From positions 1 through 26,212 of the IMG/VR virus record IMGVR_UViG_3300047548_001127: DNA of 26,212 nt. One strand, 5' to 3'. Origin of the DNA: a virus. The position numbers were made by a program, and so were the translations under genes. Below are positions 2,771 through 24,195 of the stretch, one piece after another (positions within the stretch are counted from its first letter, which is position 1; every line of letters begins with the position of its first letter). Under the pieces are notes generated by a model. The model saw only the letters and a program-made list of their open reading frames with translations. It did no database searches and was not told the DNA's origin.

Positions 2771-2783
2771 TCTCTAAATCCTG

Positions 2784-5391: not shown

Positions 5392-8300
5392 GGCCCCTCA
5401 AGAACCTTGCGGGAACAGTGTTGGTATCCTGCAATGCTACACCATCGCTAGCAGTACCTACACCCTGTTGATACCATGTAACACCACGGCGTACCAAAAT
5501 TGTTACTTCAACGTTGGCTGCTGGTGCAGTCAATGGTGGGTAAACAGTGTCATCAACAACAAAGTCAATGGCCAATGGATCAAAGTCTGTTACGAACCAA
5601 CGATACTGACTCTCAGCACTGGTGTCGCTGTAAGCATATTGACGGATTCCGCCCACATAAACTTCGATTGCTTTGTTTTCTGTGCTAGAATCTTCAAAAT
5701 CTTCAAATTCAATACTAGGTGCATAGAACACTGATGTAGTGCCATCACCTATGCTTGAATCGCTGACAATGTAATCTTGATATTCTGTTGCCATCAGGTT
5801 GCCGCGGCCCATGTCATAAACAGGGTCACCCGCTGAGTGGTCAGCTGCTGCTGTACCTGCTGTACCACGTCGCAAACCACTCACAGTGTTCAGCGCAGTG
5901 TTACGTTCGCGATACATGATGCGCTCACCATTGATGGTAACGACACCAAAGATGCCAATTGCAAGGTTAGGATCTCCCAAAGTGTGTGCATCCTCAACAT
6001 AGATTATGTCGTCAGTTGCTGACAAATCTTGTGTCAACACTGTAGAAGTTGTGCTGGTGATTCTATAAGTTGCCTGTACACCGCGCATGTCCTGGAAAAT
6101 ACGGAAGCCCATAGACTCAGGAACAATACTGTTGGTGGTTTCAGTTACCACTACAACCTGGTTAGATTTGATAGCGCCAGAGGCTAGAATCAAATAACCG
6201 TTTTCAACAGTGTAATCAATACCTTCAAACAGTCGTTCGCCATCCAATGTTACCCACAATCTGCTGGCAACAATGTCGTCTCTCTGTAGATAAAACTCGT
6301 TTGTGCTTACAGAAGTACCAGCAGTGTAATCATAAGCACCGGGAGTAAAGCTCACAGTGGCCAAGTCATAGGCAGTGCTGTCATACGGTTCTTCAACAGT
6401 GACACCAGTAGTAACTGGACCTTGCCACAAAATTGTCAACAGTTGTTGTTGAGCTGTGTCATTCCAACTAGTAATTCCAATCACATCGTTAATGTTGACT
6501 AGTGCTGTAATTTGCAGTTCGTTTCCAACAATTTCGTAGTCAGACACTGTGCTGACAGATATCAATATTCTTGCTCCAGCAGCCGGTGGAGTTGTGAATA
6601 TAACTTGACGGCCAGGTGTGTTAGAACCAGTCCAAGTGGTTACACTGTAGGATCCAACAACTGGACCAAAGCTTTGTTCTTGTAAAACATTGTCAACCCA
6701 GACTTGAATGTCTGTGGGTGCATTGATAATGTCTTGGTTGAATCCCATGCGTTGTGGTAAGCCAAAGCTTACACTAGAATCGTCGCCGATCCACTCAATA
6801 CATGCTGGTGGACGCAAGCGTAAACCACCCTTTGTAACAATCAAGTTTGCAACGTTGGTGCCACCCATGTTGTTGTCAAGCACAATAGTTCTGTTAGCCG
6901 CCAATGTTGCATCAGCCACAACATATTGAACTTGCGGTGTGCTCCAACTGTACTGCTCAGGTGTAGTGTAGCCCATGGCTACCAAGGCAATACCGTCGCC
7001 ACTGTTGACTGTTTGATTCAAAAATACTTTGGTCAACAATGTTGGTACGAATGGGAACCAATATTCTGTGTCTGTGATTGTGATACCAACTGGAACATCT
7101 TGCACAGCGCGATAATAACCTGCATTATCTACAACCACGTCTAGACGATTGTATGCAGTCAATATATTCCATGTTTGTGCTTCGGCATAGGGTTCCCATG
7201 TAGCGCCAACAACATTTTGTCCGTTAAGGAACGTAGCAACTGTCCAAACTTCGGCATTGTTTACTGGAATAATGACACTGCCGTCATCTTCGATGTCAGC
7301 AACAGTGTAGTTGCCGCGGAATAGCTGGCTACCCCCACCGATTTCGTACACAGCAATGTTCATTACTTGACCTTCAGTAATGTTACCCAACATGCTGACT
7401 GTTTGGTTTTCCCAGTCAATGGTATAGTCAATGCCGGGTGCAAGGTCGATGCCAACTGTCAAGTTACTGACAATTACTTGCACTGGATGGTCAACTACAT
7501 TGGCCCAACTGTAGACATTGATAACCGACGGAATATATGTGTAGCGAATGGTGCCAATTTGACACCCGTGACCGTCGTCGCTCCAGTCCGAACCTGGACG
7601 TGTAAACACACGGAAATCTAGTGTGTCGTATTCGCTACCGTTGACTAATTCTTCAGGTGCGTGACCTTCGTACGGTCCAATAAATTGGCCACCGTCGACG
7701 TTGATATCACTGAAGCGTTCGCCCAGGGCTGTATCAGTAAATGCACTTTGATACACAGCATCTAGATTTGCTGGGTTACCCAAGAAATAATCACCGTAAA
7801 CTTGTACGCCAGGGTAGTCAATACCGTCAATCAACAACGGTAGTTCAACACCAGGTTGATTGACGCCAGCAACATACAAACCTTTGGTACGGTCAATACC
7901 AGTTAGGCCTAGAGCGCCCTGCCCATAGTTAAACGTGCCTGGATTTACCAGTGTCCAATCTTCAAGATTGAATGTTGGGCCAACTACCGCAGTTGAGTCT
8001 GCGCTGCTGGCCTGCCACACACGATTGTCATAACGTACCAAAGTGCCGTCTTGATAGGTACCATTTTCATTCCAGTCAACTACGCTTGACACATATTGAT
8101 ATCTATCATAGCGAATAACTGTACGGAAGCTACGAACAACATCGTTGCTCATGATTGCATAGGCTCTTGCACCAGTACCGTTGCCGCCGTCAAATACAAT
8201 AGTTGGAGTTGAACGATAGCCGCTGCCCGAATCAGTTACTGTGACGTTTGTTATAGCACCGGTGCTGCTGATTGTAGCCACCGCTGTAGCAGGAACTTCA

Positions 8301-11300
8301 GCATCGCCTTGAATAATAACTGTAGGTGGCTCTGTAAATCCTGATCCACCTTCAACTAATTGAATTTCATCTAGATTCAGCAAGAAGTTGTTATACCACT
8401 GGCTGTATGGCCAGCCTTGCCAGACTGTGCTAGATGCCGGTGTGTTGCTCAGTGTATTGCTTGCCGAACCAAACGATGTGCTTTGATTGTATGGCAACAG
8501 CACTGGGCTTGTGTACTGTGGGGTTTCCAACGTAGTGTTGTAATACGATGGAACATCAAAGTCAGTAAGGTCTCCTAAGAAATCGTCAGTTCCCGAATAC
8601 TTGAGGTTAAACTCTCTAATCTGCACGTGATACGGCTTGACTTCCTGGATGTATTGCTCCACAAACTCTTGGTTATCACGAATGTAATTTTGATAGGGCA
8701 ACAGGTCACGAATTCTGTGATCAACGTCAATCAACGAAGTCTTGACCAGCCACTCAGGTGCAGAGAATTCGCTCAACACAAAGTTAAACATCAATACCAA
8801 GCTGCGGTTACGTTCAATTGCCAAGTCATCCACAAACAATTCTTCATTGATGGCTTGAATAATTTTACGGGTCTCAATTACTGGCTCTTGATCATAGTAC
8901 TGAGCGTCGAATACTTCCAAGTCAAAGCCAAATCGACCTGCTGCGTAATCCCAGAGTTCGCTAGAGAATTCAATGGTTCCGTCTTGCAAGCCCACACGCT
9001 GCCAGCCTGTATCAGTGCGAAGGTAAATTTCCCACTTACCTTGGGCGTTGGCAGTGACCTTGACACTAGATCCCACTGTCACAGTTGACAGAGTATCCAA
9101 GGCTGTGTAAGTTGGTACTTCGGCTATGACTTTGGTGCTGGAATTGTATCCAGGCATGTACCAGTTAATATAACTCCAATAATCTGGAGTGTTGTAATTT
9201 TGTACACGAGTCAACACAAGATCGCGCTGGCCCAAAACAGTGTCGCTAGCTTCGACGGTGTAAATGGTCCAAAGTCCTCGATTGCTGCTATCGGTTACAA
9301 CAAGATAACGATACCCCAACGGAACACTATAGATGTTCTGGAATCCCAAGATTTCTAAGTTAGCGACTCGTAAATTCCACAATCCCGAGCTTGCGCTTGG
9401 TTCTGGTTCTGCAGAATTCAACAGATTAAATGTTCGGTTCTCAGCAATTGAATACTGGGCCAGAACAGCGTTTGCTCGCATCAAGTAGTTCTTAAGGGCA
9501 GCAAAACGATCCACAAACATGCTCTGACGTGGGCGGAACTGCACACCATAACGTTCAGCAATGCTTAGGTTAGTGTCAGGCACTAAGTTACCAAATGTGT
9601 CTACACCGCAGAAACTATCTTGCAGTTTACGATACAAGTTACCGCTTAAGAATCCATCCTCACGATCTTGTGGAATCAATTCGTATTCAACGTGAACGTT
9701 GTCGCCAGTTAGCTCTCGGTCAAATTCAATGTTGATAATTGTGTCTTGCGCTTCAATATAGTCAGCAGAGTTGTAAAGTGCAAATGTGCTGGCGTTGATA
9801 GGAGCAATGTACGGGATACCCGATGCACGAGGATTTTCAATGTAACTAGCAATCACACTCACTGGCAAAGTTTTGCCAAGATGTGTGGCTGTTTGTGTTA
9901 TGCCTCTCACCCAGAAGTAGTAATCTGTGGCAATAGTTCCATCTACTCCCAAACGAGAATTAATGGTATAACTCAGCGGATCCTTGACTACACCTTCTCC
10001 GGTATATTGCGAAGGAGGAACTGGACTTACAATCCATTGATAAACATCTACGCTGCTGCCAGCAAATACTTGACTCCAGCGTCGGCTTGCATAGACAATG
10101 TCATCTTGGTTTGGGTCAATAAAGCGCACAGTGCTGGTGTCCCACCAGATTTCGCCAACTCGATCTGCACCCCAAGTTGTGCCGCGAATATTAATCGGAC
10201 CAACATTGTAAGATGCTGGGTCTACTGCGCCAACATAGTTAATATTTTGACGAGCCACACCCAGTATCTTGCCTTGCAGAGGATTGATAAAGTCTAAAAA
10301 CTCTGTTGTTTCGCTGGTGATTTGGTTGTACAAAAACACACTGTTGAGCAAGCGAACATCTACAACTGGTTGTTGCTGTCTTATTACAGACCACGCTGGC
10401 GAACGTGTAGTATTTTCAAACACAAACACACTACCGTAATTGCTGAGTGCTGAGTCATCAGCATCATAACCAATTGCTCCGGCCAACAACACACCACTAG
10501 AGTAGTACACAGATGTACCAAAATAGTCAAAAGAGTTTACACTTTCAGAGCCAACTTGTACACCGAAGATAAATTTGCCCGGGTTTGTTTTGCTTGACGA
10601 GCTGCTGGGCAAATAATCAAATGTATACGCTGCACCACTTTGTACCACACTGGTGAAGAATGTTGTACTGCCAACATCAAAAATTGTTGTTCCATTATCA
10701 AACTCAATTTCAAGGTATAGTGTACCGCGAGGTGCTCCAACTACTAAGTTAACTGCGGTGTCGCTGATACTCAAGCTTGAACCGAATCCAGCCTGTGCTA
10801 CCGGATAAGGACTTGTAATAGTCTGTGTCCAAACAAAAGTTTCAAATCCAATAGTATTGTAAGCTGTGCCCACCGATCCTGGTAGTACAGTTAGTTTGCT
10901 TGTTGGCATCACTGCGTCAGCATTTATAACAGCCAAGGTCATAATACCACCGGTGCTGACTGTGGCACTGACGTTTGGCACAGATGCGTTGATTTGTGCT
11001 GCCAATGCACGAATATAGATGCTGGCCGCAGTTGTGGTTGTGGTCACAGGGACCCAGTAGGAAGTATTGGTAATCAATACGCCAACTCCAACATCTTGCA
11101 GTGCTCGATAAATCGTATAGGTGCTGCCACTTAGATTGTATACTACATCGTTTTTATAGTAAGAGGTTGCACTGGTCCAAGAAGCTGGGACAGGAACATC
11201 AATGTCGTTAACTCTCAGTGTGTGGCCGGCAGTGAGCGCAGGATTTGCGTTTACTGATTCAGTTAAACCAAACACACGGCTTTGGTTTACAAAACGTTCT

Positions 11301-14300
11301 ACCACACCGCCTTTGTAAATTTGAATTGAGCTCTGTGGTTCACCAATATACAAGCTGCAACTATTAACACAAATATCTACAGCACTTCCAAAGTTGCTGG
11401 CGCCAGCAACTTCGTTTTGGGTTGTTTGCTGTACCAATGCAAATTGGTTTGTTTCAATTTCAACAATGTCACCAATTTGTAGATCTGTGTTGACTGTTAC
11501 AGTTGTTGACCCATTCCAAGTAAATGTATTTGCAGCATCAAGAACGCTGTCAGTTTCGTTGATCAAGAACGAACCATTGACTAAAACGCTGAGTGGTCCA
11601 ACAGGTGTGCCCAATAGCGAGAATGAGATCGAACTTGGATCTGTTCCGTAAATGAACTTTTGTACATTGCGGTCAAACACATATACTGCACCGGCTTCAA
11701 CACTACCGTCAACGGTTTGATTTGGTGCGCCAATCATGAGCTGACGACCGTCAACTGTGCAACTTACGCTGTGACCAAATCTAGCACCAGCAGTGAGTCC
11801 AGAAGTGGTTATAGTATTGACAAATTCAAAATACCCTTGAGCATTGACGATGATTACTGCACCTTGAGCAGGTACTGTAGTAAAAGTCAAATCTTTGGTT
11901 GTGTTGTTAAATGTATAGTCGATGTACGGACGATACAACACACCATTCACGGTCACGCTGAATCCATAGATATTGTCAACGGTGAAGAAGTATTCATTCA
12001 GTGAGAACACTGTGGTCAGTGCTGGTGGTGTGTAGGCAATGTTAAACAAGCCCAATGTGCCGCCAGCGCCCACTGTGGTAACAGTTAATGTAATGTTGTT
12101 GGTGCTGCCAAAACTTGCGCCAGCAATGGTAATTGTGTCACCAGGAGCATAACCACTGCCCAAACTTGTTGCACCAACAGTACCAACAGTGGCTCCAGGT
12201 TGGCCCACTTCATTGCGAATACGAACCACAGTAAATTTAGCACCGGCGCCGCCGCCAGAAGTTGCAGATTGTGTTACATCGTAGTAAGTTTGCGCATCAA
12301 GTTGTTGAACATAAATGCGTTGGATATCTACAAGTACATCAACACCCGGGGCGTTGACAAAAGTTACCTTAGTAAATGCTGCGTCAACAGTATAATCAAC
12401 GTTGAGAGTCTGAACGTTGCCGTCAAGGGACACTTTGATTTGAGTGGCTGCATTGATTTGCACTGTTTCTTTGAACGGATATACTTTAGTAACGCCGTCG
12501 CCGCGAGCACGAGCAAACTGATTTTGATAATCGACACGGCCATAAGCATAGACTTTGTTAACGCCCGGTGCACCGATGTACATCCAGCGTTCGTCTTGAC
12601 TCATAGTGACGCTGTAGCCGAATTCCCCAGCAGCAGTGCGGTCAGCAGTTACGTCAGGTACCAGCAATTGCCACTGAACGTAAGGCACAACACCAGGTTG
12701 TCCCAGTGCAGGGTCTCTGTAAATTACAGCAGCATAACCAACATTGGCTTGGCTTCCGGGGCCAAGACTTCCAGGTGCGCCAGCAACAGCCCAAGTTTGA
12801 TTACCAAACTCAACAGATGTACCATAACCAAGAACGCCAGTGCCATCTAAAGTCAAGATTGCATCAGCATCAGCTAGCGGGCTAATAGGTACGTATTCCT
12901 CGGCCGAACTCTTGACATACAGATAAACTGCGCCCTTGGCAGTGCCGGTGCCAAACCCATACCTTGGACTACCAACTAGGGTAGCCAAACGGTTTTGTGC
13001 CTGTGCAACACTAGCCCCGTATTGTTCTGATGCGTCTAGAATCAATGGTGTCAAGATGGCATTGCTGTCAAACACCTGTTGTTTTTCCAGCACTTGCCAT
13101 AGTCCGCTGCCATTGTCATCAACCCAAACTTTTGCACCAGTTGTGATTTGATTGGCATAGGGCAAATTCTCAATATCTGACGGCTGGGCCACACGCATGG
13201 TTTGTAAAGTGAATCCGAGTCCGGCGCCATTGGCCACCGCGCGATCTCCAGTGAATTGGAAAGCGATGTTTACGGTGTTGAGGTTAGGCACAGACAGTAC
13301 TTGATACACGCCATTAATTTCAATGTCAAAGAACTTGATAATCAGTTTATCGCCAACTGATAATCCATGTTGTTCGCTGAAGATTGCGCGACTGGTGCCA
13401 TCAAGGTTATCACAAACGTGCTCAATAACACCAGGAACTGGTTGAGCACGGTAGATACCCCAATCGTAATTGTTGATTTTAGCAACCCAGATGCTGGTAC
13501 CAACGCCAATGCTGTCTAGATTTTGATCAAGACTTTCTGTGTCATTGATATCAAACACAGTGAGATCAGCATCGTTGAGATTTACATAGCCAGCTGTTGG
13601 CAATGCAACGTCTGTCACGCTTATTGTAGTAGTTGGTAAAATATCAGGGCTTGTTAATTTGTAGCTCTGACGCCAAACATCATTCAACAATATAGTTTGA
13701 TCTGCATCACTGACTTGTTGTGGCAGCACCACTTGTACCAAACTTGGGTTAGGATTCAACAATGCACGGTTGAGTCGCAGTTCAAAATAACTGCGGTTAG
13801 CATTGGCACCGTACACTGCTCGCTGAACTGCCCAGTTTTCATAGATGTCGTAGTCTGCGGCTTCTTTACCAAAGTTAGCGCCTTTAAACAGTTCAGCAGA
13901 CTGAATCGTTCCTTTTGTTCCAAGGAACTGTCGATAAATGTTGAGCTGAGTCACGCTGTCAAGATTCAACGATGCCATGTATTGACGTGGACGGAATCCA
14001 ATCAATCCATAACTCAACAAATCGTTGTCACTTTCAATGTTGGCAGCATTGATATTGTAGCTATTGACTAGCTGATCAGCTTTGTTAGAAATGTTAGGTA
14101 ACAGTCCTAATTCAATCTGACTGTAGTCGCTTTGAGCCCAGTCATTGAAGTTAAATGTTGCACTGGGTTGTACAATTTTCAATGCACTCCAGTAGACATT
14201 TTTGTACTTGACAATTTCACCCTTGCTGTAAGTTTTTGTGCCAGTCCACTCTTCAACGTTGTTTTGATTAAGAATAAAGCCTGGAGCATTGACACTACCG

Positions 14301-17300
14301 TTCCAATCAGTAGTGGTAACAGCGTTTAAATTCAATCGACTTTGACGTGCGCCAGTTGTAGGATCGTAAATCAAATCACCAAACACACTGCGATTGTCAA
14401 GCACAATCATGTGTTCGTAAGTGGTAAAGTTTACGTCAATATAACTGATGCTGTCAGGTGTCAGCGGCTGGACCTTGAAGGTGTTGTCTAATCGCACAAT
14501 ATTGAGATTGCGAGTTGCAAATTCTTGATTGTTTTGATTCAATATAGAATTTTCAGCAGTCTGTGTTCTGATAGTATCAACAATGGCTTGTTCTTTAGTT
14601 ACAGACACACCATCAGCCAATGGGTTGAGGTTGATGATTGCATCGGTACCCCAGCCTTGCTGACTCCAGTACAGAAATTCGTTGACCATTCTTGGCCAGT
14701 CTAGTACATAGCCGTTGGCTTGATTTGTAAATGTCAAGCCTTGTGTTTCTAAGAACTGTCCATAACTTAACAAGAAGTCCGCCACGCTGGTTGGCGATTC
14801 AAACACAAAACCGTAGGGAACTCGTACCACTGTATCAGTATAGAATGTAGGTACTCGAACAGTGATGCCAGCAGTGCTGTAGGTCTGCATGCGACCAGCT
14901 GCGCGACTTTCAAGGATGTTGAAATATGGCTGTGCAGTGCTGTACCCAAATACAGCATATCCGCCACCGGCGGTTTTTTGTATTGCAACAGAACTGTAGA
15001 TTACACGATCAAATGGCTGGTTCTTATAAAGAACCAATTGATAACTTTCGTCAGGAATCAACAGTGCAGTATTAGTTGAGTTAGGGCTTGACTTCTCGGT
15101 GTAAAGTTGAATGTATTGCTTGTCGCTGAAGCTGGCCATTCGATAGCACAGACGAACGTCAAGACTCTTCAAGTCTTTGGTTAGATTTTCAGTTGAATCT
15201 AATCCACTAACTCGATTATAGTCGACAATCCAGTTGATATAGCTGGCTTTACTTACACCATTACCGTAAACTTCTACACCGTTGGCATCCAAACGGTAAC
15301 GATTGTTGTAGAGATATTGCTGGTAATCTTCGTTAAACCTGTACAGATCTCGATCAGCAAACAATGCAAAAAACTTGGCAGGGCGAGTCACAGCCAATAC
15401 ATGCATCACAGAGAACGGATATGCACTGCTATTCCACCAGCTGGCTTCCACTGGGCCACCATCCCCAAGTGCCCATGATTTTTGTATTTGTTGCTCACTT
15501 AGGTTGCCAACTACAGTCTGCATTGGGCTTAATAATTCGCCTTCTGTGCCAGTGGGAATGACTCGTGCCAATCCAGGACGTGCATATTCAGGGACATAGT
15601 AAGGCACAACTGGGTCTCGGACATAACCGGCTTCCAAGTCATCCCAAAGAACCAAGTTGTCAGCAGTATATGGCGCGGCGCCATACGTGTCTTGCCACCA
15701 ATCGGGTTCGATAGAAAATCCCAACATTTCCCAAGGGGTCAAACTTGGTTGCTGTGTATCATAGAAGTAACGATAAATGCCGCGCCAGGCGCCTAACAAA
15801 TTCTCGTTGTTGAGTTTGTTCTTAGAAGAGCTGTAGTTCCAAGTAAATTCATTGGTGTTGCTAAATTGTTGCTCTTTGAAGTCTAGCTTGTTCCATCCAC
15901 AATAGCTCAAAAAGTCTTGTGCAAAAATTGTGTTGATTTCACTTAGAGAAAATCCAGTGTCTCGGAATTGACCCGGCAGCACATCAGTAATAGTCAACGG
16001 TACTGGGTTTCCATCAAGCTTGAGGTTGCTGAAAATTCTAGTTTCGAACTCAAGCAACACATCGTCACGAATGTCTCCAAACACTTTTGTAATACTACCG
16101 TCGTGTCCAAGGATGGCTTCAATTTCACCATTGCTGGTGATTTGAGTAATTCTAGCAGGGCGCCAGGCTGGGTACAATCCCAACTTAGTTGGTGTGTTTG
16201 GCACAAAACTACCATAGGTAGTTTGATATTCATTGATGGTAATTTTGTCACCAATGTTTAGTGTTGTGGTGATAGTCAGACGCGGACCGTCTGTGGCCAC
16301 ATCGTAGTCTTTACCACGAGTCAATATTACATCGTTTTTATACACTGCCAAGCCAAGGTAGTTGGCTGAAGTAAAATTATAAATTTGTACAGTGTCAAAT
16401 GTATTCGATGTAATAAAACTTACAGTATAGGTGTTGCTGTAGGTTGTAACACCTTGTGGTATCATGTCACTCCAATAGAAGGGTTGAGAACCGATCTTTC
16501 CAAGAGTAATGTCTTGAATGGCAGTGTCTAATACTTGGCCAATGGTTTGGAATCCAATGTTTTGTGTCAACACAGAATCAAGCATCTGTGCTTTGAACTT
16601 GATATACTCTCGAGAGTTATATTGCATAGATTCAAAGATGTTGTAATCTTTGCTACGCAGGAAATAACCAGCCAAAGTCATTGGAGAACTTTGCTGCAGG
16701 ATAGTTAAACCGTAAGGAACTACGTTGCCAAGGTCTCGCAAGTTGTTGGCGCCAACAATGGGCCCCGACAATCCCAACAAGTTTTCGCAGATACTTTCGT
16801 AGTGAGTACGAATTGTACCAAGTGTAAAACTAGGAGAGTTAGCGTTCAGTGGGTTGCTTTCTAAGTTAATAGGTACTTGATAGAAAGCCACTTGACTGGT
16901 CTGCTCACTCAGCGCCAAAACTTCGATAATATCCCCAACTACAGCGCGATCAGTATTAAGGGTCACTGTTGTTGAATCTGTTCCCACGGTGTAGCTGTAA
17001 GTCACCGGTTCTTGGAACTTAGATCCTACATAAATTTTTAGCACTGGAACTGCAATAGATGTTTGGGGCAGGACTGCAACATCTAGTTTTAAAGCCTCAC
17101 CGGCATAGGTAAATTTAAACTGCTGATAGACTTGGCTGTCAACTACACCAGTTTGCCAGCCCAGTTGCTTCTGGAAGGTAGTACGAGTTTGATATTCTCG
17201 AATAGAACCTGAGCTAATATCAGATGTGATAGACACGTTGTCAACAACGTACAAGAATGTATCTTTGTAAAGATTGTTTTCAAATACAATGTCACCAACG

Positions 17301-20300
17301 TTGTTGATGTTGAGGTACTGCAATGGGAATTGCAGCACTGGATCAATAACTGTTGTGTCGCTGACTGCGTAACTGAACAATTTGCTACCAGAGAATGTAG
17401 TTGACTGGTACTTACTGTCGTCACCAAAACTTACACCCTGTGGGTCATAGATGTTGTACAAAGGAGCCTGTTGCACACTGGTTTTTTGTTGTGCAGGTTG
17501 CCATTCAGTTCCGTTGTACCAGTAAGTTTTTCCAACTTCTGTGCTGCCGGCTAAAACCACAGTGGATTGATCAACCAATACTTCACCGTCTGATGCTAGT
17601 GTAAGTTTGATAATAGGCTGATCAACGTTGGCCACACCGGTTCCGGATCCAGCAATTTGTGCAATGAAAGTGTCTCCAACTGCATAAGTGATACCAGTGG
17701 TGCCTGCTACAGCGTTCCAATCTGTGTTACCAAGTGTGGCAATTTTGTAATGCACGCCAAACAAGAAATTACCGGCTGTTGTAGATGGGCTTACATCAGG
17801 AACCACAAAACTCACAACGTAAATTTTGTTTCTAACATCAGCATCTTCATCAGCAGCAAAAATTACACGACTACCTTCAACAAGACTGTAACCATCTGAG
17901 GTATATCCAGTTGAACCTTGAATGTTACTAAATGCATCAGTTTCAGCAAAGTCAATGATATCTACTGGCTGTTTGCCTTCGGTGCCCATGTTCCATAGTC
18001 GAATTCCTGGACGGAATTGAATAATTGGACGCTTGGCTCGGTTTTCTTTGCTGAGTTCAGCAGCCGTATTATTGTAAGCAGCCGCAGCATTGATGACATC
18101 AATATGGAACCAACGATTACTTCTAGTCCATGGGTTTAAATCTTTGCTGGCTCGATCAATAGTTAGATAATCAATGTCCTGTGGCTCAGTTGTAATTGTT
18201 GATGTGTCATTGTCAACAGCGTAAGTTTCGGGAACTACAAAATTAGTAACAGGCAACAGCTCAATGGATGTGCCTACGCCACTGACATAATATTGTCTGT
18301 CAGCAATGGTCGTTGCTGTGCCCTCGCCAGTACCAGTTAACAAATCTGCAATTACACCACCGGGGGTTTCGCTTATGGTAAATTTGAATCCATCGGCGGA
18401 TATGCTTCGAACATAGTAGTTTATTCCTGGTGTGATTCCGCCTAGAGTTGGTGAAGCAAAAGAAATTTGCTGACCGACATAAAGGCTACCAGTGTCAGTG
18501 CTGCTGATATAATTTGTACTAGCATCGGTGGCATAGTAAGTGATAGAATCTACGCCAGATGCATAGCTCAATGGGGACACATCACCGGTGAATCGAACTT
18601 TCAAACCATTGGTAAATTCTACGCCATTGGGCGAAGTATAGTTTTTCTTGCCAATAATTTCGTCAATGAACAATGTGCTAGTAGTAGTCTGGTCAATTAG
18701 CTTGATACGACCAAAAATTTCCGGGTCTGTTCCGTCCTGGTAGTACAATGTATCTTGCACAGCAGTCAGCAAAGGAATTTGTTCAAAAGTCTCAGTGGCA
18801 TTTTTGTACCAGTTGGTATTGCTGTAAGTTTGACCATAACGGATGGTAAACTTTTCAAGCGAGTCAACTGTTTCAACTTTGCTGAGTTGCATGTAGTTGG
18901 CACCGTTGAGATTGACATAGGTAATTTGCCAAATTTGATAACGGTCTTGAGGTGGAATCTCAGTAGTTTCACCAAAAGTGGTTGAGTCGTAGCTACCAAA
19001 CAAACCATTGTTGGCCGCACCAGCATTTAGGGGATCGTAAAAGCTGGTACGTAACCAACCGCCAGCTTCGGTGTCTTGAACCGGGTTGGTAAAAATCAGT
19101 GTGCGATTGTTGAGGTTAGTGATACCATCAATGCCGCCGCGACTGACAATAAACTCTTCTACTGGTTGGTTGTTGATTTCGTCAAACTTGAGAGACGTTA
19201 CTAAATCAACAAAGTAGGGAGTGGTGCTGCCGTTGACCCATTGCAGATTGTAATAGAATTCTTGAGCAGTTTTTTGTGGTACATTAAATGTAATAGTACC
19301 AAGATCTTCGCCGTTGTTGATGACTCCAAACACATCTCGACTTGAAATGTTAGGTGTGGCTGGCATTGTTCCAGACACGCCAGGTGCAGCCTGAATCCAG
19401 AATCCTGGACCTGTTCCCGGTGTACCATCAACGATGTTTAGAGTACCATGCATGTTGGTTTGATTTTCTGCGGTGTAATACAGAACATCGGGTGCATCTT
19501 GTGGAACAGTAAAAGTCACTAAACCTGTGATAGATCCGTTACGACTTACACCGTTGTTGTAAACTTCACCAAGTCCAGTTACAGGTTGTGTTTTAATCCA
19601 GAAAGGATATGAACCGTTTAAGTTCAAGTTAAACACATAGGTGTTTCCGCGGGCCAGTGTCAGCGTAGGATTGTTTAAATTGTCAATCACATAAGCTGAA
19701 ATTCCACTGTTACGGACACGATAGTTAACGGTTTCTTTATTGTTTTGCGCAACTTGGAAAGTGTAGCTGCCGCCGCGCACTAATTCAACAATGGGGTTGT
19801 CGCCATTGAGGTTAGAGAATGTGTAAACTCCGTTTTCACGATTGACTATAAAATTAGCAGTTGTAGGAACACCAGTGGCTGCAACATCAACAACCAAGGG
19901 GCCTTCGGGAACCCAGAAGTATTGACTGAAGTTAACAAACGCATCAAAGTCAATGAAAGGGTCCCACGAATAGTACTGACTTTCATACAGTCGGTCAGGA
20001 CGATTGCTAATGCCATTTTGGAATCCAATGGCATCATTGATGCCCGGATACGTAATAACATCAATGATGTTGTTGGTATCAGGCTCAAGACTTACAACAC
20101 CAGGTTCAAGTTGATAATTTGCTCGTGTGGTGTTAGGCTCAACGACATAACGATCGTTGGGGTTTACACCGGGTCCCACAGTGCGGCCAATAAAACCTTG
20201 TGTTTTCTTAAAAGCTGGTTCTTGTATCAGCTGGTCCAGAGTTGCTGCAAGGAACTGCTTGTTTGCATCAGTTTGAAAAATTTCTGGAAGAAAATCTACA

Positions 20301-20317
20301 CTACGAATTTTGGCCAT
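5387..20317 (-). CDS. Giant multidomain virion structural protein, 4976 aa (baseplate wedge/fiber-associated)
   Basis: One uninterrupted frame encodes about 540 kDa. ATG overlaps the gp6 stop (TAATG) with GGAG 7 bases upstream. Residues 1-145 (IRSVDFLPEIFQT, AATLDQLIQEPAFKKTQGF, YYSWDPFIDFD) match, from memory, the start of large virion proteins placed after gp6 in T4-like marine phages. Further parts are: a cupredoxin-like domain (about 216-297); a G-x-x-Y-x-I-x-T-x-G-x-TDW module (about 853-893); a non-repetitive core (about 1450-2000, with HVLAVTRPAKFFALFADRDLY); an FG-GAP propeller (2433-3302); W-x5-Y carbohydrate-binding-like modules starting at W2024, W3047, W4082 and W4383; GSGY/GSGF beta repeats (about 2720 and 3990-4050); and a C-terminus with GERIMYRERN and RRGTAGTAAADHSAGD (about 4780-4830), ending TVPARFLRGL. 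Its position is that of T4 gp7, so a wedge role with surface-binding extensions is inferred. It is about five times longer than T4 gp7. Confidence 0.85.
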   Translation of the reverse strand: MAKIRSVDFLPEIFQTDANKQFLAATLDQLIQEPAFKKTQGFIGRTVGPGVNPNDRYVVEPNTTRANYQLEPGVVSLEPDTNNIIDVITYPGINDAIGFQNGISNRPDRLYESQYYSWDPFIDFDAFVNFSQYFWVPEGPLVVDVAATGVPTTANFIVNRENGVYTFSNLNGDNPIVELVRGGSYTFQVAQNNKETVNYRVRNSGISAYVIDNLNNPTLTLARGNTYVFNLNLNGSYPFWIKTQPVTGLGEVYNNGVSRNGSITGLVTFTVPQDAPDVLYYTAENQTNMHGTLNIVDGTPGTGPGFWIQAAPGVSGTMPATPNISSRDVFGVINNGEDLGTITFNVPQKTAQEFYYNLQWVNGSTTPYFVDLVTSLKFDEINNQPVEEFIVSRGGIDGITNLNNRTLIFTNPVQDTEAGGWLRTSFYDPLNAGAANNGLFGSYDSTTFGETTEIPPQDRYQIWQITYVNLNGANYMQLSKVETVDSLEKFTIRYGQTYSNTNWYKNATETFEQIPLLTAVQDTLYYQDGTDPEIFGRIKLIDQTTTSTLFIDEIIGKKNYTSPNGVEFTNGLKVRFTGDVSPLSYASGVDSITYYATDASTNYISSTDTGSLYVGQQISFASPTLGGITPGINYYVRSISADGFKFTISETPGGVIADLLTGTGEGTATTIADRQYYVSGVGTSIELLPVTNFVVPETYAVDNDTSTITTEPQDIDYLTIDRASKDLNPWTRSNRWFHIDVINAAAAYNNTAAELSKENRAKRPIIQFRPGIRLWNMGTEGKQPVDIIDFAETDAFSNIQGSTGYTSDGYSLVEGSRVIFAADEDADVRNKIYVVSFVVPDVSPSTTAGNFLFGVHYKIATLGNTDWNAVAGTTGITYAVGDTFIAQIAGSGTGVANVDQPIIKLTLASDGEVLVDQSTVVLAGSTEVGKTYWYNGTEWQPAQQKTSVQQAPLYNIYDPQGVSFGDDSKYQSTTFSGSKLFSYAVSDTTVIDPVLQFPLQYLNINNVGDIVFENNLYKDTFLYVVDNVSITSDISSGSIREYQTRTTFQKQLGWQTGVVDSQVYQQFKFTYAGEALKLDVAVLPQTSIAVPVLKIYVGSKFQEPVTYSYTVGTDSTTVTLNTDRAVVGDIIEVLALSEQTSQVAFYQVPINLESNPLNANSPSFTLGTIRTHYESICENLLGLSGPIVGANNLRDLGNVVPYGLTILQQSSPMTLAGYFLRSKDYNIFESMQYNSREYIKFKAQMLDSVLTQNIGFQTIGQVLDTAIQDITLGKIGSQPFYWSDMIPQGVTTYSNTYTVSFITSNTFDTVQIYNFTSANYLGLAVYKNDVILTRGKDYDVATDGPRLTITTTLNIGDKITINEYQTTYGSFVPNTPTKLGLYPAWRPARITQITSNGEIEAILGHDGSITKVFGDIRDDVLLEFETRIFSNLKLDGNPVPLTITDVLPGQFRDTGFSLSEINTIFAQDFLSYCGWNKLDFKEQQFSNTNEFTWNYSSSKNKLNNENLLGAWRGIYRYFYDTQQPSLTPWEMLGFSIEPDWWQDTYGAAPYTADNLVLWDDLEAGYVRDPVVPYYVPEYARPGLARVIPTGTEGELLSPMQTVVGNLSEQQIQKSWALGDGGPVEASWWNSSAYPFSVMHVLAVTRPAKFFALFADRDLYRFNEDYQQYLYNNRYRLDANGVEVYGNGVSKASYINWIVDYNRVSGLDSTENLTKDLKSLDVRLCYRMASFSDKQYIQLYTEKSSPNSTNTALLIPDESYQLVLYKNQPFDRVIYSSVAIQKTAGGGYAVFGYSTAQPYFNILESRAAGRMQTYSTAGITVRVPTFYTDTVVRVPYGFVFESPTSVADFLLSYGQFLETQGLTFTNQANGYVLDWPRMVNEFLYWSQQGWGTDAIINLNPLADGVSVTKEQAIVDTIRTQTAENSILNQNNQEFATRNLNIVRLDNTFKVQPLTPDSISYIDVNFTTYEHMIVLDNRSVFGDLIYDPTTGARQSRLNLNAVTTTDWNGSVNAPGFILNQNNVEEWTGTKTYSKGEIVKYKNVYWSALKIVQPSATFNFNDWAQSDYSQIELGLLPNISNKADQLVNSYNINAANIESDNDLLSYGLIGFRPRQYMASLNLDSVTQLNIYRQFLGTKGTIQSAELFKGANFGKEAADYDIYENWAVQRAVYGANANRSYFELRLNRALLNPNPSLVQVVLPQQVSDADQTILLNDVWRQSYKLTSPDILPTTTISVTDVALPTAGYVNLNDADLTVFDINDTESLDQNLDSIGVGTSIWVAKINNYDWGIYRAQPVPGVIEHVCDNLDGTSRAIFSEQHGLSVGDKLIIKFFDIEINGVYQVLSVPNLNTVNIAFQFTGDRAVANGAGLGFTLQTMRVAQPSDIENLPYANQITTGAKVWVDDNGSGLWQVLEKQQVFDSNAILTPLILDASEQYGASVAQAQNRLATLVGSPRYGFGTGTAKGAVYLYVKSSAEEYVPISPLADADAILTLDGTGVLGYGTSVEFGNQTWAVAGAPGSLGPGSQANVGYAAVIYRDPALGQPGVVPYVQWQLLVPDVTADRTAAGEFGYSVTMSQDERWMYIGAPGVNKVYAYGRVDYQNQFARARGDGVTKVYPFKETVQINAATQIKVSLDGNVQTLNVDYTVDAAFTKVTFVNAPGVDVLVDIQRIYVQQLDAQTYYDVTQSATSGGGAGAKFTVVRIRNEVGQPGATVGTVGATSLGSGYAPGDTITIAGASFGSTNNITLTVTTVGAGGTLGLFNIAYTPPALTTVFSLNEYFFTVDNIYGFSVTVNGVLYRPYIDYTFNNTTKDLTFTTVPAQGAVIIVNAQGYFEFVNTITTSGLTAGARFGHSVSCTVDGRQLMIGAPNQTVDGSVEAGAVYVFDRNVQKFIYGTDPSSISFSLLGTPVGPLSVLVNGSFLINETDSVLDAANTFTWNGSTTVTVNTDLQIGDIVEIETNQFALVQQTTQNEVAGASNFGSAVDICVNSCSLYIGEPQSSIQIYKGGVVERFVNQSRVFGLTESVNANPALTAGHTLRVNDIDVPVPASWTSATSYYKNDVVYNLSGSTYTIYRALQDVGVGVLITNTSYWVPVTTTTTAASIYIRALAAQINASVPNVSATVSTGGIMTLAVINADAVMPTSKLTVLPGSVGTAYNTIGFETFVWTQTITSPYPVAQAGFGSSLSISDTAVNLVVGAPRGTLYLEIEFDNGTTIFDVGSTTFFTSVVQSGAAYTFDYLPSSSSSKTNPGKFIFGVQVGSESVNSFDYFGTSVYYSSGVLLAGAIGYDADDSALSNYGSVFVFENTTRSPAWSVIRQQQPVVDVRLLNSVFLYNQITSETTEFLDFINPLQGKILGVARQNINYVGAVDPASYNVGPINIRGTTWGADRVGEIWWDTSTVRFIDPNQDDIVYASRRWSQVFAGSSVDVYQWIVSPVPPSQYTGEGVVKDPLSYTINSRLGVDGTIATDYYFWVRGITQTATHLGKTLPVSVIASYIENPRASGIPYIAPINASTFALYNSADYIEAQDTIINIEFDRELTGDNVHVEYELIPQDREDGFLSGNLYRKLQDSFCGVDTFGNLVPDTNLSIAERYGVQFRPRQSMFVDRFAALKNYLMRANAVLAQYSIAENRTFNLLNSAEPEPSASSGLWNLRVANLEILGFQNIYSVPLGYRYLVVTDSSNRGLWTIYTVEASDTVLGQRDLVLTRVQNYNTPDYWSYINWYMPGYNSSTKVIAEVPTYTALDTLSTVTVGSSVKVTANAQGKWEIYLRTDTGWQRVGLQDGTIEFSSELWDYAAGRFGFDLEVFDAQYYDQEPVIETRKIIQAINEELFVDDLAIERNRSLVLMFNFVLSEFSAPEWLVKTSLIDVDHRIRDLLPYQNYIRDNQEFVEQYIQEVKPYHVQIREFNLKYSGTDDFLGDLTDFDVPSYYNTTLETPQYTSPVLLPYNQSTSFGSASNTLSNTPASSTVWQGWPYSQWYNNFLLNLDEIQLVEGGSGFTEPPTVIIQGDAEVPATAVATISSTGAITNVTVTDSGSGYRSTPTIVFDGGNGTGARAYAIMSNDVVRSFRTVIRYDRYQYVSSVVDWNENGTYQDGTLVRYDNRVWQASSADSTAVVGPTFNLEDWTLVNPGTFNYGQGALGLTGIDRTKGLYVAGVNQPGVELPLLIDGIDYPGVQVYGDYFLGNPANLDAVYQSAFTDTALGERFSDINVDGGQFIGPYEGHAPEELVNGSEYDTLDFRVFTRPGSDWSDDGHGCQIGTIRYTYIPSVINVYSWANVVDHPVQVIVSNLTVGIDLAPGIDYTIDWENQTVSMLGNITEGQVMNIAVYEIGGGSQLFRGNYTVADIEDDGSVIIPVNNAEVWTVATFLNGQNVVGATWEPYAEAQTWNILTAYNRLDVVVDNAGYYRAVQDVPVGITITDTEYWFPFVPTLLTKVFLNQTVNSGDGIALVAMGYTTPEQYSWSTPQVQYVVADATLAANRTIVLDNNMGGTNVANLIVTKGGLRLRPPACIEWIGDDSSVSFGLPQRMGFNQDIINAPTDIQVWVDNVLQEQSFGPVVGSYSVTTWTGSNTPGRQVIFTTPPAAGARILISVSTVSDYEIVGNELQITALVNINDVIGITSWNDTAQQQLLTILWQGPVTTGVTVEEPYDSTAYDLATVSFTPGAYDYTAGTSVSTNEFYLQRDDIVASRLWVTLDGERLFEGIDYTVENGYLILASGAIKSNQVVVVTETTNSIVPESMGFRIFQDMRGVQATYRITSTTSTVLTQDLSATDDIIYVEDAHTLGDPNLAIGIFGVVTINGERIMYRERNTALNTVSGLRRGTAGTAAADHSAGDPVYDMGRGNLMATEYQDYIVSDSSIGDGTTSVFYAPSIEFEDFEDSSTENKAIEVYVGGIRQYAYSDTSAESQYRWFVTDFDPLAIDFVVDDTVYPPLTAPAANVEVTILVRRGVTWYQQGVGTASDGVALQDTNTVPARFLRGL
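10412..13021 (-). repeat. Seven FG-GAP repeats (integrin-alpha-like beta-propeller) within the giant protein
   Basis: Seven copies of the pattern [YF]-G-x-[SA]-[VL] ... [VIA]-G-[AES]-[PI] ... G-x-[VA]-[YF]-x-[YF] occur, starting near residues 2433, 2498, 2566, 2847, 2976, 3178 and 3266. Clear examples are FGHSVSCTVDGRQLMIGAPN with GAVYVFD, and FGYSVTMSQDERWMYIGAP. Seven is the blade number of the integrin-alpha propeller. Long insertions separate blades 3-4, 4-5 and 5-6, and one holds a carbohydrate-binding-like module. I did not see a convincing DxDxDG calcium loop inside the blades. Confidence 0.7.
19427..19672 (-). other. Cupredoxin-like domain of the giant protein, metal site degenerate
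   Basis: Residues about 216-297 follow the plan of a small cupredoxin-like domain common in marine phage structural proteins: NPTLTLARGNTYVFNL, then PFWIKT, then TFTVPQDAP and LYY, ending MHGTLNI. In the copper-type version the ligands are a His before PFWIKT and a C-x2-H-x2-M set after LYY. Here they align with Tyr237, Ala283, Gln286 and Met289, so three of four ligands are lost. The fold assignment is from motif memory. Confidence 0.55.
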
Positions 20318-23300
20318 TAGATAACTCCGCTACCGGGGGCAGTACGCAAATTGGTACTGGTCAACGCTTCGATTACATCAATATTATTGATGGTAGCACC
20401 GTTGACAAAAATTTCATTTGGTGCTGAACGGATTTCGTATAAGTCACCAAAATATTTTTGTGGATCTAGTGGTACTAGAACCACAGAACTAATAATTGTA
20501 CCTAGCTGTCTATGCAAGTAAGCAGCTAGCTCAGAGAAGTAGAATGTGTCTCCAAAGTTCCACTTGTCAATACTGAAATAATCATTCATTGCAGCAACTA
20601 CAGCAGATTTAATCTCGCTAGTACTAGCAGTTGAATTGCTGGCACGAATAACTTTGATTGTAGCCTGCAAGTTGTTGGCGGCTTTCTCACCAAACAGTGG
20701 TTTGAATGTCACTGAGTTAAGAATGATGTTATCACTCAACATCTTGTAATCTTGTAATCCTTGATATGCTGTACTTAACTCATCAATTGTGGGCTGTGCA
20801 GGTTGTTCCACTGTGCCAGTTGTGTCACGAATCCAATTCTGATAGGCAGTGTAATAAGACTGTGTGACCACGTACAAATCAATGATGTTTGTAGTACCAG
20901 GGTCAATTCGGTTTGTCAACGGACTGTTGTGGCGATACTGGTAGTACAAACTTTGACGACCAGTTCTAGCAATCCACTCATTACTGACATCAATCAAGGT
21001 ACGAACGCCAGTGGTGCTAATACTGAGCTGATAGAATGCCCCAGTGTCTGTCTGGCTGGGATTTTGGTTGTAGGCATAAAATATTTGCCCTGGGCTCCAC
21101 TGAGTTTTAGCCAATTCAATATCATCTAATGTGGCATAGTCACTGGTTACTAATCCAGGTTCTACCAATAGGTAACGCTGTAAATTATCAAAGTCCACAG
21201 TTTTCTGTAGATAAACGTACTTTTGTGTTGGATTAGTATCTGGTGCAACAATTTCATCAAAGAAGTCTGGATTGTCTGGTACACCGTCGTTGTCGCTGTC
21301 ACGGAATCCCACAAGCACTTGGAAGTCGTCAACGTAACCATCACTTTCAACAGGTTGGCCAGTGATAGTCATTGGAATATCACCAGACAAAGTTTGTGTA
21401 GAATCGGGTTGTGTATTAACTGCCAGCACGTTAATGAAGTCGCGAATCACTGTGCCGGTCCGGCTGTCATACACTTGTTGCCCGTCATAGTAGAAGAAGC
21501 GTGTTTGTAACACAGAACCAAAGTAATATCCAAGACCACGGAACGTGATTGTGTAGTTTTGATTGCTAGTAACAAACTGAACTAACCAGCTTGCATCGCT
21601 GTTGGTATTGGATGTGGACCCAGCGTTGGCCAAACTAAACGGTGCATTTTCGTCAAGGTTGGTATTGGTAATCAAATACCAAGAATAGCGTGTTCCAGTA
21701 ATACTGCCGTCGTTGTCATAGCCAATGCCAAAATTGCGATACAGTAGAATTTGTTCGGCCATGGCCTGCTCTAATGCCAATGGCAAGTCGGTAACAAACA
21801 AAGGAATAATTGTTTCAACAATAGCACCTGTTGGAACAAAGTTGTTGATAGTAACTGGTCCAGCACCTGAAGATAGATTTCCAAGGCCGCTGTTGCTGCC
21901 GTCACCAACAATGACCTGTGGTGCTGCCCAGATAGATAATTTTTCGTCGGCTCTAGTTGGTGTACCCAATTGAAGTTTATTGTTTTGATCGAAATAGTAA
22001 CCAGTGGGTGCAACAAATTTGATCAGGGCACCAACAGCAACGTATTTGAACACAGTGCTCGAAGTGTCACCAACTGCAATTGGAGTTCCGCTGGCATTGA
22101 CAAAGTAGCCTGTGGTTTCGTTGGCCAGTGTTGTAGACTGGTGCCAAGTGCTCAGTGCAGTTGCACCTGTGTTGACAGTTTGACGTGGATAGTTAGCATA
22201 ATAAAACTGCTGAACTGTACTTTCGGCCAGCTGTGGCTGAACACGGTTTGTTACTACGTCAGCAATTTCGTTACGGCTTGTGTAGGAGAACAAAATTGTA
22301 GGAAGAATATCTTGTTCCCACAGTCCACCATCACTACCAAATGTGTTGGTGCTAGAATACTTGCCGGTGTTGTCAACTAAGTCTAGATAACGGCTGGTAC
22401 CAATACTGGCACGATTGACTGCCTTGCTCTTGACAATGCTGTTGTATTGTGTGTAAGGGAAGAGGTTATAGTCTTCACCATTGACCATACGGTTTTGTGT
22501 ATAAAAACGAGCAGGAGCACGTTGCTTGATTTCAGCAATAGGTTCACGTGCCTGACTGTTGCTTACAGGTTGGGTAATACCACAAGTAAATGTAACAGTC
22601 TCAAGGTTACCTTGACGGCTGATGTAACTGATAGGAATAGTTACAGCCTGCATTTCTTCAGGGTTGATGATGTATTGCAAACCGTTTGAGGCACGTACAT
22701 AGGCACGGAATGTACCCACTGGAATCTCTGAGAACACACCGTCACCAAACACCATGGTAATCTGGTCATTGGTACGACTTGTCACACTGTAGATTGGACG
22801 CAGGTCAGTGCCCAGCTGTTCAGCAGCAGCACTGTAAATGTTTTCAGTATATTCCCACTCTCGAGTAATATTACCAACGTTGTCTAACTGGAATAACCAA
22901 CGATCTTCGTTGTTGATACCTTCAATGTTGATGTTCACTGTGCGATTGCTGATGCGTTCGGCCAAGTTAAAATCTTGGTTTTGCAGCACACCTTGCTTGA
23001 ACATAAAGAAGTATCCAGTGTTGTTACTTGCAAAACCCAATTGATCGTTGCGGAACAAAATATTAAATGGTTGGTTTGGACGTGGGCTAGGCTCATACAG
23101 ATAATCTTCCCCGGTGCTGGTAGAAGTAACTGCTTCAAACGGCATACTGACACCATCAACTGTGGCAGTGTAAGGTACTACTGGCAGATATCCAGGAACC
23201 AAGTTAATGGCGTATTCGTCTGTGCGAACGCCCAGTATGGTCTGGCGGTTGCCAGGACGGCCTACACGTTGAGTGTCAACTAGACTAGCATTTAAGATTG

Positions 23301-23772
23301 CAGTAAATTGTTCTTGCCAGTCCGGATTTGTTGGGTCAGCCCAATTAATTGTAACGTTACTAAGGTTGACGCCCTGGTAATCATAGACGTTTTCAGTTGT
23401 AGTGATGTTGAAAACTTTGAGTAGCCCTTGTGCTGCTGTGTTACGCTTGGCAGTATAGCTAACAAGATTGGCAAGGCGAACCACACTATCACGACGTTCA
23501 GCAGTGTCTATGTAATTTTCTCGAGTGTTGAGGTCAGTACGAAAAGCCAGGGCTTGGCCCATAAAGGCAATGATATCCAGCAAAGCAATGAATTCCGAGC
23601 TTTCGATGTAGTCATTGAATGTTTCAGGATAATACAAACGCAAATAATCAATGAAACTCTTGCGCAGGGTTTCAAAGTCGTAGCTTTGGAAGTCAGCTTC
23701 GCGATAGGTTTGGTAGATTTGTTTCCAATCCTCAACGCCAAATATAGCTGTTTGTCTAGTAGTAGTTGCCAT
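20317..23772 (-). CDS. 6: Baseplate wedge protein, gp6-like, enlarged (1151 aa)
   Basis: The N-terminus (about residues 15-130: FETLRKSFIDYLRLYYPETFNDY, ESSEFIALLDIIAFMGQALAFRTDLNTRENYIDTAERRDSV) is typical of T4 gp6, which dimerises to form the ring of baseplate wedges around the hub. The C-terminus (IKVIRASNSTASTSEIKSAV, NDYFSIDKWNFGDTFYFSELAAYLHR) matches the baseplate J-like end. At 1151 aa it is far longer than T4 gp6 (about 660 aa); the extra length lies in the middle and includes an acidic DSDNDGVPDNPD loop at residues 825-836 and a GYDNDG near 686. The ATG is preceded by AGAGG at 8 bases; the next ATG-free upstream region carries a hairpin and a late-promoter-like motif. It lies between gp25 and the giant protein, as in T4-type gene order 25-6-7. 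Confidence 0.92.
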   Translation of the reverse strand: MATTTRQTAIFGVEDWKQIYQTYREADFQSYDFETLRKSFIDYLRLYYPETFNDYIESSEFIALLDIIAFMGQALAFRTDLNTRENYIDTAERRDSVVRLANLVSYTAKRNTAAQGLLKVFNITTTENVYDYQGVNLSNVTINWADPTNPDWQEQFTAILNASLVDTQRVGRPGNRQTILGVRTDEYAINLVPGYLPVVPYTATVDGVSMPFEAVTSTSTGEDYLYEPSPRPNQPFNILFRNDQLGFASNNTGYFFMFKQGVLQNQDFNLAERISNRTVNINIEGINNEDRWLFQLDNVGNITREWEYTENIYSAAAEQLGTDLRPIYSVTSRTNDQITMVFGDGVFSEIPVGTFRAYVRASNGLQYIINPEEMQAVTIPISYISRQGNLETVTFTCGITQPVSNSQAREPIAEIKQRAPARFYTQNRMVNGEDYNLFPYTQYNSIVKSKAVNRASIGTSRYLDLVDNTGKYSSTNTFGSDGGLWEQDILPTILFSYTSRNEIADVVTNRVQPQLAESTVQQFYYANYPRQTVNTGATALSTWHQSTTLANETTGYFVNASGTPIAVGDTSSTVFKYVAVGALIKFVAPTGYYFDQNNKLQLGTPTRADEKLSIWAAPQVIVGDGSNSGLGNLSSGAGPVTINNFVPTGAIVETIIPLFVTDLPLALEQAMAEQILLYRNFGIGYDNDGSITGTRYSWYLITNTNLDENAPFSLANAGSTSNTNSDASWLVQFVTSNQNYTITFRGLGYYFGSVLQTRFFYYDGQQVYDSRTGTVIRDFINVLAVNTQPDSTQTLSGDIPMTITGQPVESDGYVDDFQVLVGFRDSDNDGVPDNPDFFDEIVAPDTNPTQKYVYLQKTVDFDNLQRYLLVEPGLVTSDYATLDDIELAKTQWSPGQIFYAYNQNPSQTDTGAFYQLSISTTGVRTLIDVSNEWIARTGRQSLYYQYRHNSPLTNRIDPGTTNIIDLYVVTQSYYTAYQNWIRDTTGTVEQPAQPTIDELSTAYQGLQDYKMLSDNIILNSVTFKPLFGEKAANNLQATIKVIRASNSTASTSEIKSAVVAAMNDYFSIDKWNFGDTFYFSELAAYLHRQLGTIISSVVLVPLDPQKYFGDLYEIRSAPNEIFVNGATINNIDVIEALTSTNLRTAPGSGVI

Positions 23773-23817: not shown

Positions 23818-24195
23818 TTATACGTAGGAGGCGTTGCGGGTAGTTAAGTCAAAGAAAATAGCAAGACGTTCGGCATCTGTGCTAGGCAACACAGTCAGTT
23901 GAATCTGTATCAAAATGCCGTTTTCTTGTGGGAAAGTTTGAACATCACTGATGTAGATTCTAGGATCGCCACCAGCAACTCGTTGAACTTCGGCTTCGAT
24001 ATCTCGTTGCAGTTGTTCAACTTGATTTTCAAACAAGAAGTCCCACAACAATGTGCCGTATTCTGGACGGCCCGGAAGCTGACCTTGACGAATGTTAAAT
24101 GCATTCAGCAGATCTCTTTTGATCAAGGCATAGTTTGTGAGAGTGAACTTTTTGTACTGCCCCTGTGTGTTGAATCCAATAAAATTCTGTGCCAT
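23818..24195 (-). CDS. 25: Baseplate wedge protein, gp25-like
   Basis: A 125-aa protein, close to the usual length of the gp25 family (T4 gp25 is 132 aa). Visible family features are the N-terminal FTLTNYALIKRDLLNAFN, the strongly conserved PEYGTLLWDFLFE around residues 43-55, a helix (QVEQLQRDIEAEVQRVA), and the C-terminal strand pair around ILIQIQLTVLPSTDAERLAIFFDLTTR. In T4, gp25 joins gp6 and gp53 in the wedge core that surrounds the hub and takes part in starting sheath assembly; related proteins occur in type VI secretion baseplates. No lysozyme activity is expected despite the old family name. It starts 8 bases after the 514-aa gene with only a weak ribosome binding site, and lies 45 bases before gp6. 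Confidence 0.92.
   Translation of the reverse strand: MAQNFIGFNTQGQYKKFTLTNYALIKRDLLNAFNIRQGQLPGRPEYGTLLWDFLFENQVEQLQRDIEAEVQRVAGGDPRIYISDVQTFPQENGILIQIQLTVLPSTDAERLAIFFDLTTRNASYV

Follow-up and report, generated by a model that had tools for sequence, protein, structure and literature searches.

Why does a fold known from animal cell adhesion occur inside a giant phage virion protein, and what might it do there? The question is raised by P0001, a protein of 4,976 amino acids encoded on a complete IMG/VR virus record (IMGVR_UViG_3300047548_001127) of 26,212 bases; this whole stretch is referred to here as the window. A preliminary description of the sequence proposed that part of P0001 is a seven-bladed FG-GAP propeller like that of the integrin alpha chain. 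Sequence profiles and predicted structures agree with this proposal. The region is predicted to encode a closed seven-bladed FG-GAP propeller of integrin-alpha type; it forms a single domain, set in a loop at a constant position of a giant protein that is associated with the baseplate wedge in jumbo myoviruses.

YG or FG is found exactly at P0001 residues 2433, 2498, 2566, 2847, 2976, 3178 and 3266, the seven positions at which repeats had been said to start. The expectation that simple domain searches may miss the fold was not borne out, since an ordinary Pfam search of whole P0001 finds FG-GAP_2 (PF14312) with 48.8 bits against a curated cut-off of 23 (expect value, E, 7.9e-13). Residues 2401-3335 alone match at E 1e-16, and FG-GAP_2 is the sole Pfam family above its cut-off in the protein. 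When the blades were scanned singly, five of the seven matched FG-GAP_2 (Table 1), blade 4 passing the cut-off, and blades 2 and 5 gave no FG-GAP match in Pfam. Profiles built from six blades and compared with the seventh recovered every blade; none of 999 shuffles equalled the score of any of blades 1 to 6, and 5 of 999 did so for blade 7. With the single-blade matches, these results place an FG-GAP signal in at least four repeats. The span first assigned to the propeller (10412-13021) holds the repeat starts and falls short of the full domain at both ends (Table 1).

The same pattern is seen in homologs. In an alignment of 32 sequences, the relatives displayed show each of the seven FG...GAP cores. 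FG-GAP_2 gave a match in all 32 close relatives (E <=1) and in 49 of 50 compact relatives (E <=0.01). Models of the seven blades occur in order in 137 homologous open reading frames (ORFs), with no out-of-order case. Other proteins with PF14312 repeats resemble P0001 in that it matches the family above the curated cut-off; they differ in forming a long open array, whereas here exactly seven repeats, interrupted by insertions, lie inside a conserved phage scaffold.

An AlphaFold2 model of residues 2401-3335, computed with 31 relatives, has a predicted local distance difference test score (pLDDT) of 86.9 and a predicted template modeling score (pTM) of 0.86, and its strands fall into seven groups of four. 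Among PDB structures searched with Foldseek, integrin alpha-5 was the top match (E 2.9e-8), with a template modeling (TM) score of 0.56 by integrin length and only 0.29 when normalized to the query, because of the long insertions. Since these insertions blur the comparison, we also modeled L197, a compact and almost insertion-free relative (locus 7345-9084, 580 amino acids, 50 sequences; pLDDT 80.7, pTM 0.82). All 50 PDB matches listed for L197 were integrin alpha chains, the best being isolated integrin propellers with TM scores, normalized to the target, of 0.61-0.66. From sequence alone, the compact-group profile matches integrin alpha-4 (E 9.1e-9), and over blades 4-7 it is homologous to the window profile (hhalign probability 99.9%, E 1.6e-36). 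Both predicted models point to the seven-bladed toroid that had been proposed; ring closure is judged from their strand pattern and their Foldseek matches.

Like the propeller of integrin alpha chains (alpha-5, alpha-V, alpha-4 and alpha-IIb), the phage domain has seven FG-GAP repeats with blades of four strands, in which FG precedes strand 1 and GAP follows strand 2. Unlike them, it bears loop insertions of phage-type domains and is set in a tail protein of 5,000 amino acids, where a beta partner, I domain, thigh and calf domains and membrane anchor are not expected. The calcium-binding DxDxDG motifs of integrin blade 1-2 loops were found neither in the window nor in any of the 50 compact relatives. 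Because these motifs are absent, the propeller is not an integrin, and the likeness is limited to fold and repeat family.

Three long insertions interrupt the blades, as had been described, and are seen in both the AlphaFold2 strand map and the 32-sequence alignment. Strand 3-4 loops of propeller blades lie on one common face, which in integrins is the lower face, opposite the ligand face. In the model all three insertions occupy such loops (blades 3, 4 and 5) and therefore share one face. Insertion 1 matches PF03906, the T7 tail-fiber N-terminal domain, below the cut-off (E 4.5e-4 on the isolated piece); the same family was matched in 8 of 32 relatives, at best with E 1e-7. By eye, the insertion consists of two domains resembling the T7 tail-fiber N terminus around a GSGY-type module, and it is absent from the compact relatives. 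Flagellin_IN was matched somewhere in the propeller region of 7 of 32 relatives and was placed in insertion 3 by eye. We considered a CBM5/12 label for the module nested in insertion 3, but Pfam gave no match to it and we retain only the term "CBM5/12-like pattern". In 87 of 274 ORFs an iterated profile detects such patterns in the propeller region, following differing blades; P0001 itself has four copies along its length (residues ~2023-2061, 3047-3089, 4081-4123 and 4382-4421). Blade 6 has an FDxGxTxFD loop between strands 2 and 3 that is also present in compact relatives. Across the 137 seven-blade ORFs spacing is mostly tight between blades 1 and 2, 2 and 3, and 6 and 7, where long insertions are rare; precisely the three insertion loops are the places where it is long or variable. 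The number of blades does not differ among these ORFs, but their decoration does.

The protein that carries the propeller belongs, as had been supposed, to the baseplate region of the virion. P0001 matches PHROG_10938 ("virion structural protein") at E 1.2e-269 in five stretches along the scaffold, and genes for gp6-like and gp25-like baseplate proteins are its upstream neighbors. Its homolog in phage PA5oct, gp355, bears an electrospray ionization tandem mass spectrometry (ESI-MS/MS) flag in the PA5oct record, which makes it very likely that P0001 is a virion part here too. Four further isolate phages have PHROG_10938 proteins with the same flanking scaffold: PBECO4 (gp538), Atu_ph07 (gp180), SCTP-2 (gp140) and Vibrio phage 2.275.O (NVP2275O_424). 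The gene order of the window, with a gp6-type baseplate wedge gene directly before the giant gene, is also that of PA5oct and PBECO4. P0001 aligns to these five giant proteins up to residue ~2180-2340 and again from ~3306, but the propeller does not; the isolates show no FG-GAP blade matches at the site and have 236-1,552 amino acids there, compared to 1,132 in the window. In PA5oct the strands matching KVWVDDNGSGLWQVLEK (before the propeller) and VVDVRLLNSVFLYN (after it) are, by eye, nearly adjacent. In SCTP-2 gp140 (L077) the site holds ~340 amino acids (residues ~2030-2372) without a Pfam or PDB match, and a LamG/ConA-like lectin suspected there by eye was dropped for want of support from either database.

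A tblastn search of 50,697 phage records with the propeller region gave no match at E 1e-5. With the threshold loosened to E 1, a single weak match appeared (E 0.03); it lay in phage Phosso, in a gene other than that of its scaffold protein, and Phosso was also the sole match when phages were searched with the compact propeller. Scaffold profiles identified 274 ORFs with both flanks, a non-random sample that includes near-duplicates, and 261 of them have FG-GAP blade matches at the site. At least five blade models are matched by 144 ORFs, one to four by 117, and none by 13. The 117 diverge from the sequences on which the blade models were trained; among the compact ones FG-GAP_2 was recovered in 49 of 50. 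The seven-blade count refers to the 137 ORFs described above. The scaffold ORFs without FG-GAP matches include L221, L223, L224, L228, L234, L235 and L250; L221, L228 and L234 have instead GSGY-type repeats in the region before the site. In L031 and L041 the matched stretch contains 58 and 40 in-frame stops, respectively, which indicates frameshift or assembly error.

In a tree built from the scaffold only (75 rows), propeller-bearing and propeller-free ORFs fall on the two sides of one branch with a support of 99 in the Shimodaira-Hasegawa-like approximate likelihood ratio test. The tree is unrooted, and its isolate side has long branches that were flagged by the program. On such an unrooted tree, one gain and one loss of the propeller are equally allowed. 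Mean identity to the window decreases from scaffold (0.69) to blades (0.61) to insertions (0.48), an order that holds in all 31 relatives.

The best-supported reading of these observations, to which we give somewhat better than even weight, is that the propeller with its loop domains binds a ligand on the host surface. The propeller would project from the baseplate rim, with an extra domain emerging on one face from the strand 3-4 loop of each of blades 3, 4 and 5. The ligand bound by propeller and loop domains together would probably be a glycan or exopolysaccharide of the host surface, and the resulting adhesion, while the baseplate approaches the cell, would be reversible or secondary. We favor host contact, raised in the preliminary description as a possible receptor-binding platform, because the loop insertions are modular, the region evolves faster than the scaffold, and the propeller is present or absent at one fixed site. 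The variability of the loop domains also argues for binding, and their tail-fiber-type domains and CBM5/12-like patterns, as judged from sequence, suggest an adhesin-like modularity. Several observations weigh on the other side. The insertions lie on the face opposite the one that binds ligand in integrins (by general convention), and any peripheral domain would be expected to change faster than the scaffold. When loop conservation was examined for the upper ligand face, it gave no clear signal and singled out no face, and our claim for binding is kept modest for this reason. CBM5/12-like modules are also found outside the propeller and may be generic structural modules; Pfam backs the label in only 1 of 50 compact relatives. 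Finally, the downstream products P0004, P0006 and P0007 may be the real receptor-binding fibers.

The chief rival to host binding, a serious possibility that we nevertheless judge less probable, is that the propeller has an architectural role, as a rigid disc at the baseplate rim that docks tail proteins or fibers or spaces the wedges and makes no contact with the host. Such a role would agree with the position of the propeller inside a wedge-associated protein and with the general observation that seven-bladed propellers are often protein docking platforms, and the lower-face insertions could act as docking arms. Blade order is constant, as is blade number, although the latter is compatible with binding as well. 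However, the insertions vary in length and identity, and baseplates in general can be assembled without the propeller, since five isolates with the scaffold lack it. An enzymatic role, such as degradation of polysaccharide to pass capsule or slime, appears improbable: some beta-propellers are indeed glycosidases or lyases, and the blade 1 piece has a weak polysaccharide-lyase-type Pfam match (E 0.08), but this is far below the cut-off, no enzyme family reached its cut-off in P0001 as a whole or in pieces, and the closest solved structures are the non-catalytic integrin propellers. Least probable by far is a chance or non-closed array of FG-GAP-like hairpins without a ring. The long insertions between blades, and the lack of single Pfam matches for blades 2 and 5, could be taken in its favor; they are opposed by two independent high-confidence models, by the TM scores of L197 to integrin propellers, and by the ordered blades of the 137 ORFs. 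We tentatively suggest, as a further and rather unlikely reading, that this environmental jumbo-phage lineage might use the propeller, at its one fixed site, as an interchangeable adhesion chassis in which swaps of loop domains retune surface recognition and leave the wedge scaffold untouched.

The fold family, the giant scaffold (annotated in jumbo phages) and the occurrence of propellers in phage receptor-binding proteins are already known. The propeller of the staphylococcal phage phi11 is reportedly five-bladed, without FG-GAP repeats, and part of a small trimeric protein. It resembles the present case in being a propeller at the phage tail tip with a proposed role in host recognition (PMC4901313). 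FG-GAP domains encoded by the prasinovirus MntV1 have been proposed to act in attachment (PMC11467894); in that giant virus of algae they have genes of their own, unlike the domain in the giant tail protein described here. Gp108 of Sinorhizobium phage Phosso (L079:3901-14979) is a giant phage protein with FG-GAP_2 repeats and a weak sequence match to the window propeller. It is 3,692 amino acids long and has a laminin-G domain at its C terminus and many more repeats (19 FG-GAP_2 stretches), and its gene is separate from that of the scaffold protein of this jumbo phage, which gave no match to the propeller. A literature search, judged by titles and abstracts, returned no earlier account of a phage baseplate protein with an FG-GAP propeller. 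The prediction places an animal cell-adhesion fold on the tail of uncultured jumbo phages, a widespread group, at a defined site where the isolate homologs examined do not have it. The domain is a testable candidate for the means of host contact in these phages; the compact relatives offer a clean domain of about 500 amino acids.

Table 1. Features of P0001 and neighboring baseplate genes in the window
Feature	P0001 residues	Window position	Strand	Basis
gp25-like baseplate wedge protein		23818..24195	-	PF04965 E 1.9e-7; phrog_43
gp6-like baseplate wedge subunit		20317..23772	-	phrog_10646, E 7e-285
P0001, giant virion structural protein, PHROG_10938	4,976 aa	5387..20317	-	ORF and profile match
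Scaffold before propeller	904-2180	13778..17608	-	matches PA5oct, Atu_ph07, SCTP-2, PBECO4, Vibrio 2.275.O
Whole FG-GAP propeller with insertions	~2425-3318	10364..13045	-	AlphaFold2 (predicted), Foldseek, Pfam
Blade 1	2433-2488	12854..13021	-	FG-GAP_2 E 0.0074; four strands
Blade 2	2498-2552	12662..12826	-	leave-one-out, 0/999 shuffles; four strands
Blade 3, strands 1-3	2566-2596	12530..12622	-	FG-GAP_2 E 0.0081
Insertion 1	2597-2827	11837..12529	-	blade 3 strand 3-4 loop
Blade 3, strand 4	2828-2836	11810..11836	-	model strand map
Blade 4, strands 1-3	2847-2889	11651..11779	-	FG-GAP_2 E 2.8e-6
Insertion 2	2890-2950	11468..11650	-	blade 4 strand 3-4 loop; model and alignment
Blade 4, strand 4	2951-2965	11423..11467	-	model strand map
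Blade 5, strands 1-3	2976-3011	11285..11392	-	leave-one-out, 0/999
Insertion 3	3012-3160	10838..11284	-	blade 5 strand 3-4 loop; model and alignment
CBM5/12-like pattern nested in insertion 3	3047-3089	11051..11179	-	own iterated profile, E 5e-10 (not independent, as the seed included this copy among others)
Blade 5, strand 4	3161-3167	10817..10837	-	model strand map
Blade 6	3178-3255	10553..10786	-	FG-GAP_2 E 0.0025
Blade 7	3266-3315	10373..10522	-	FG-GAP_2 E 7.7e-4
Scaffold after propeller	3312-3667	9317..10384	-	alignment to isolate proteins

The P0001 gene directly follows the gp6-like gene, as T4 gene 7 follows gene 6, and position 20317 is common to both genes, an overlap like that of the two T4 genes. 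Profile comparison by hhalign gave probabilities of 0.2% and 0.1% for homology to T4 gp7, and P0001 is not demonstrably T4 gp7 on sequence grounds despite its matching gene position. A sequence search of the PDB with the scaffold returned no useful match, a nucleotide-level search of phages with the window gave no match, and no host link was found via bacterial genomes. Near one end of the window are two adjacent ORFs, P0011 and P0008 (3-656 and 643-1446), that look glycosyltransferase-like by eye; neither has a Pfam match.

Two other parts of P0001 were noted. Residues 171-673 (window 18299-19807) form a stretch of ~500 amino acids that is not present at the same place in PA5oct gp355 and resembles, by eye, cupredoxin-type beta modules. 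Cyanophage tail and baseplate proteins match part of it with 30-47% identity; as candidate homologs of the N-terminal half of P0001 they were rejected, since the matches cover only a small module (residues ~134-303). Residues 3981-4066 form a module common to phrog_460 (head closure) and phrog_1922 (hub/lysozyme), and related copies of it are held by Atu_ph07 gp180.

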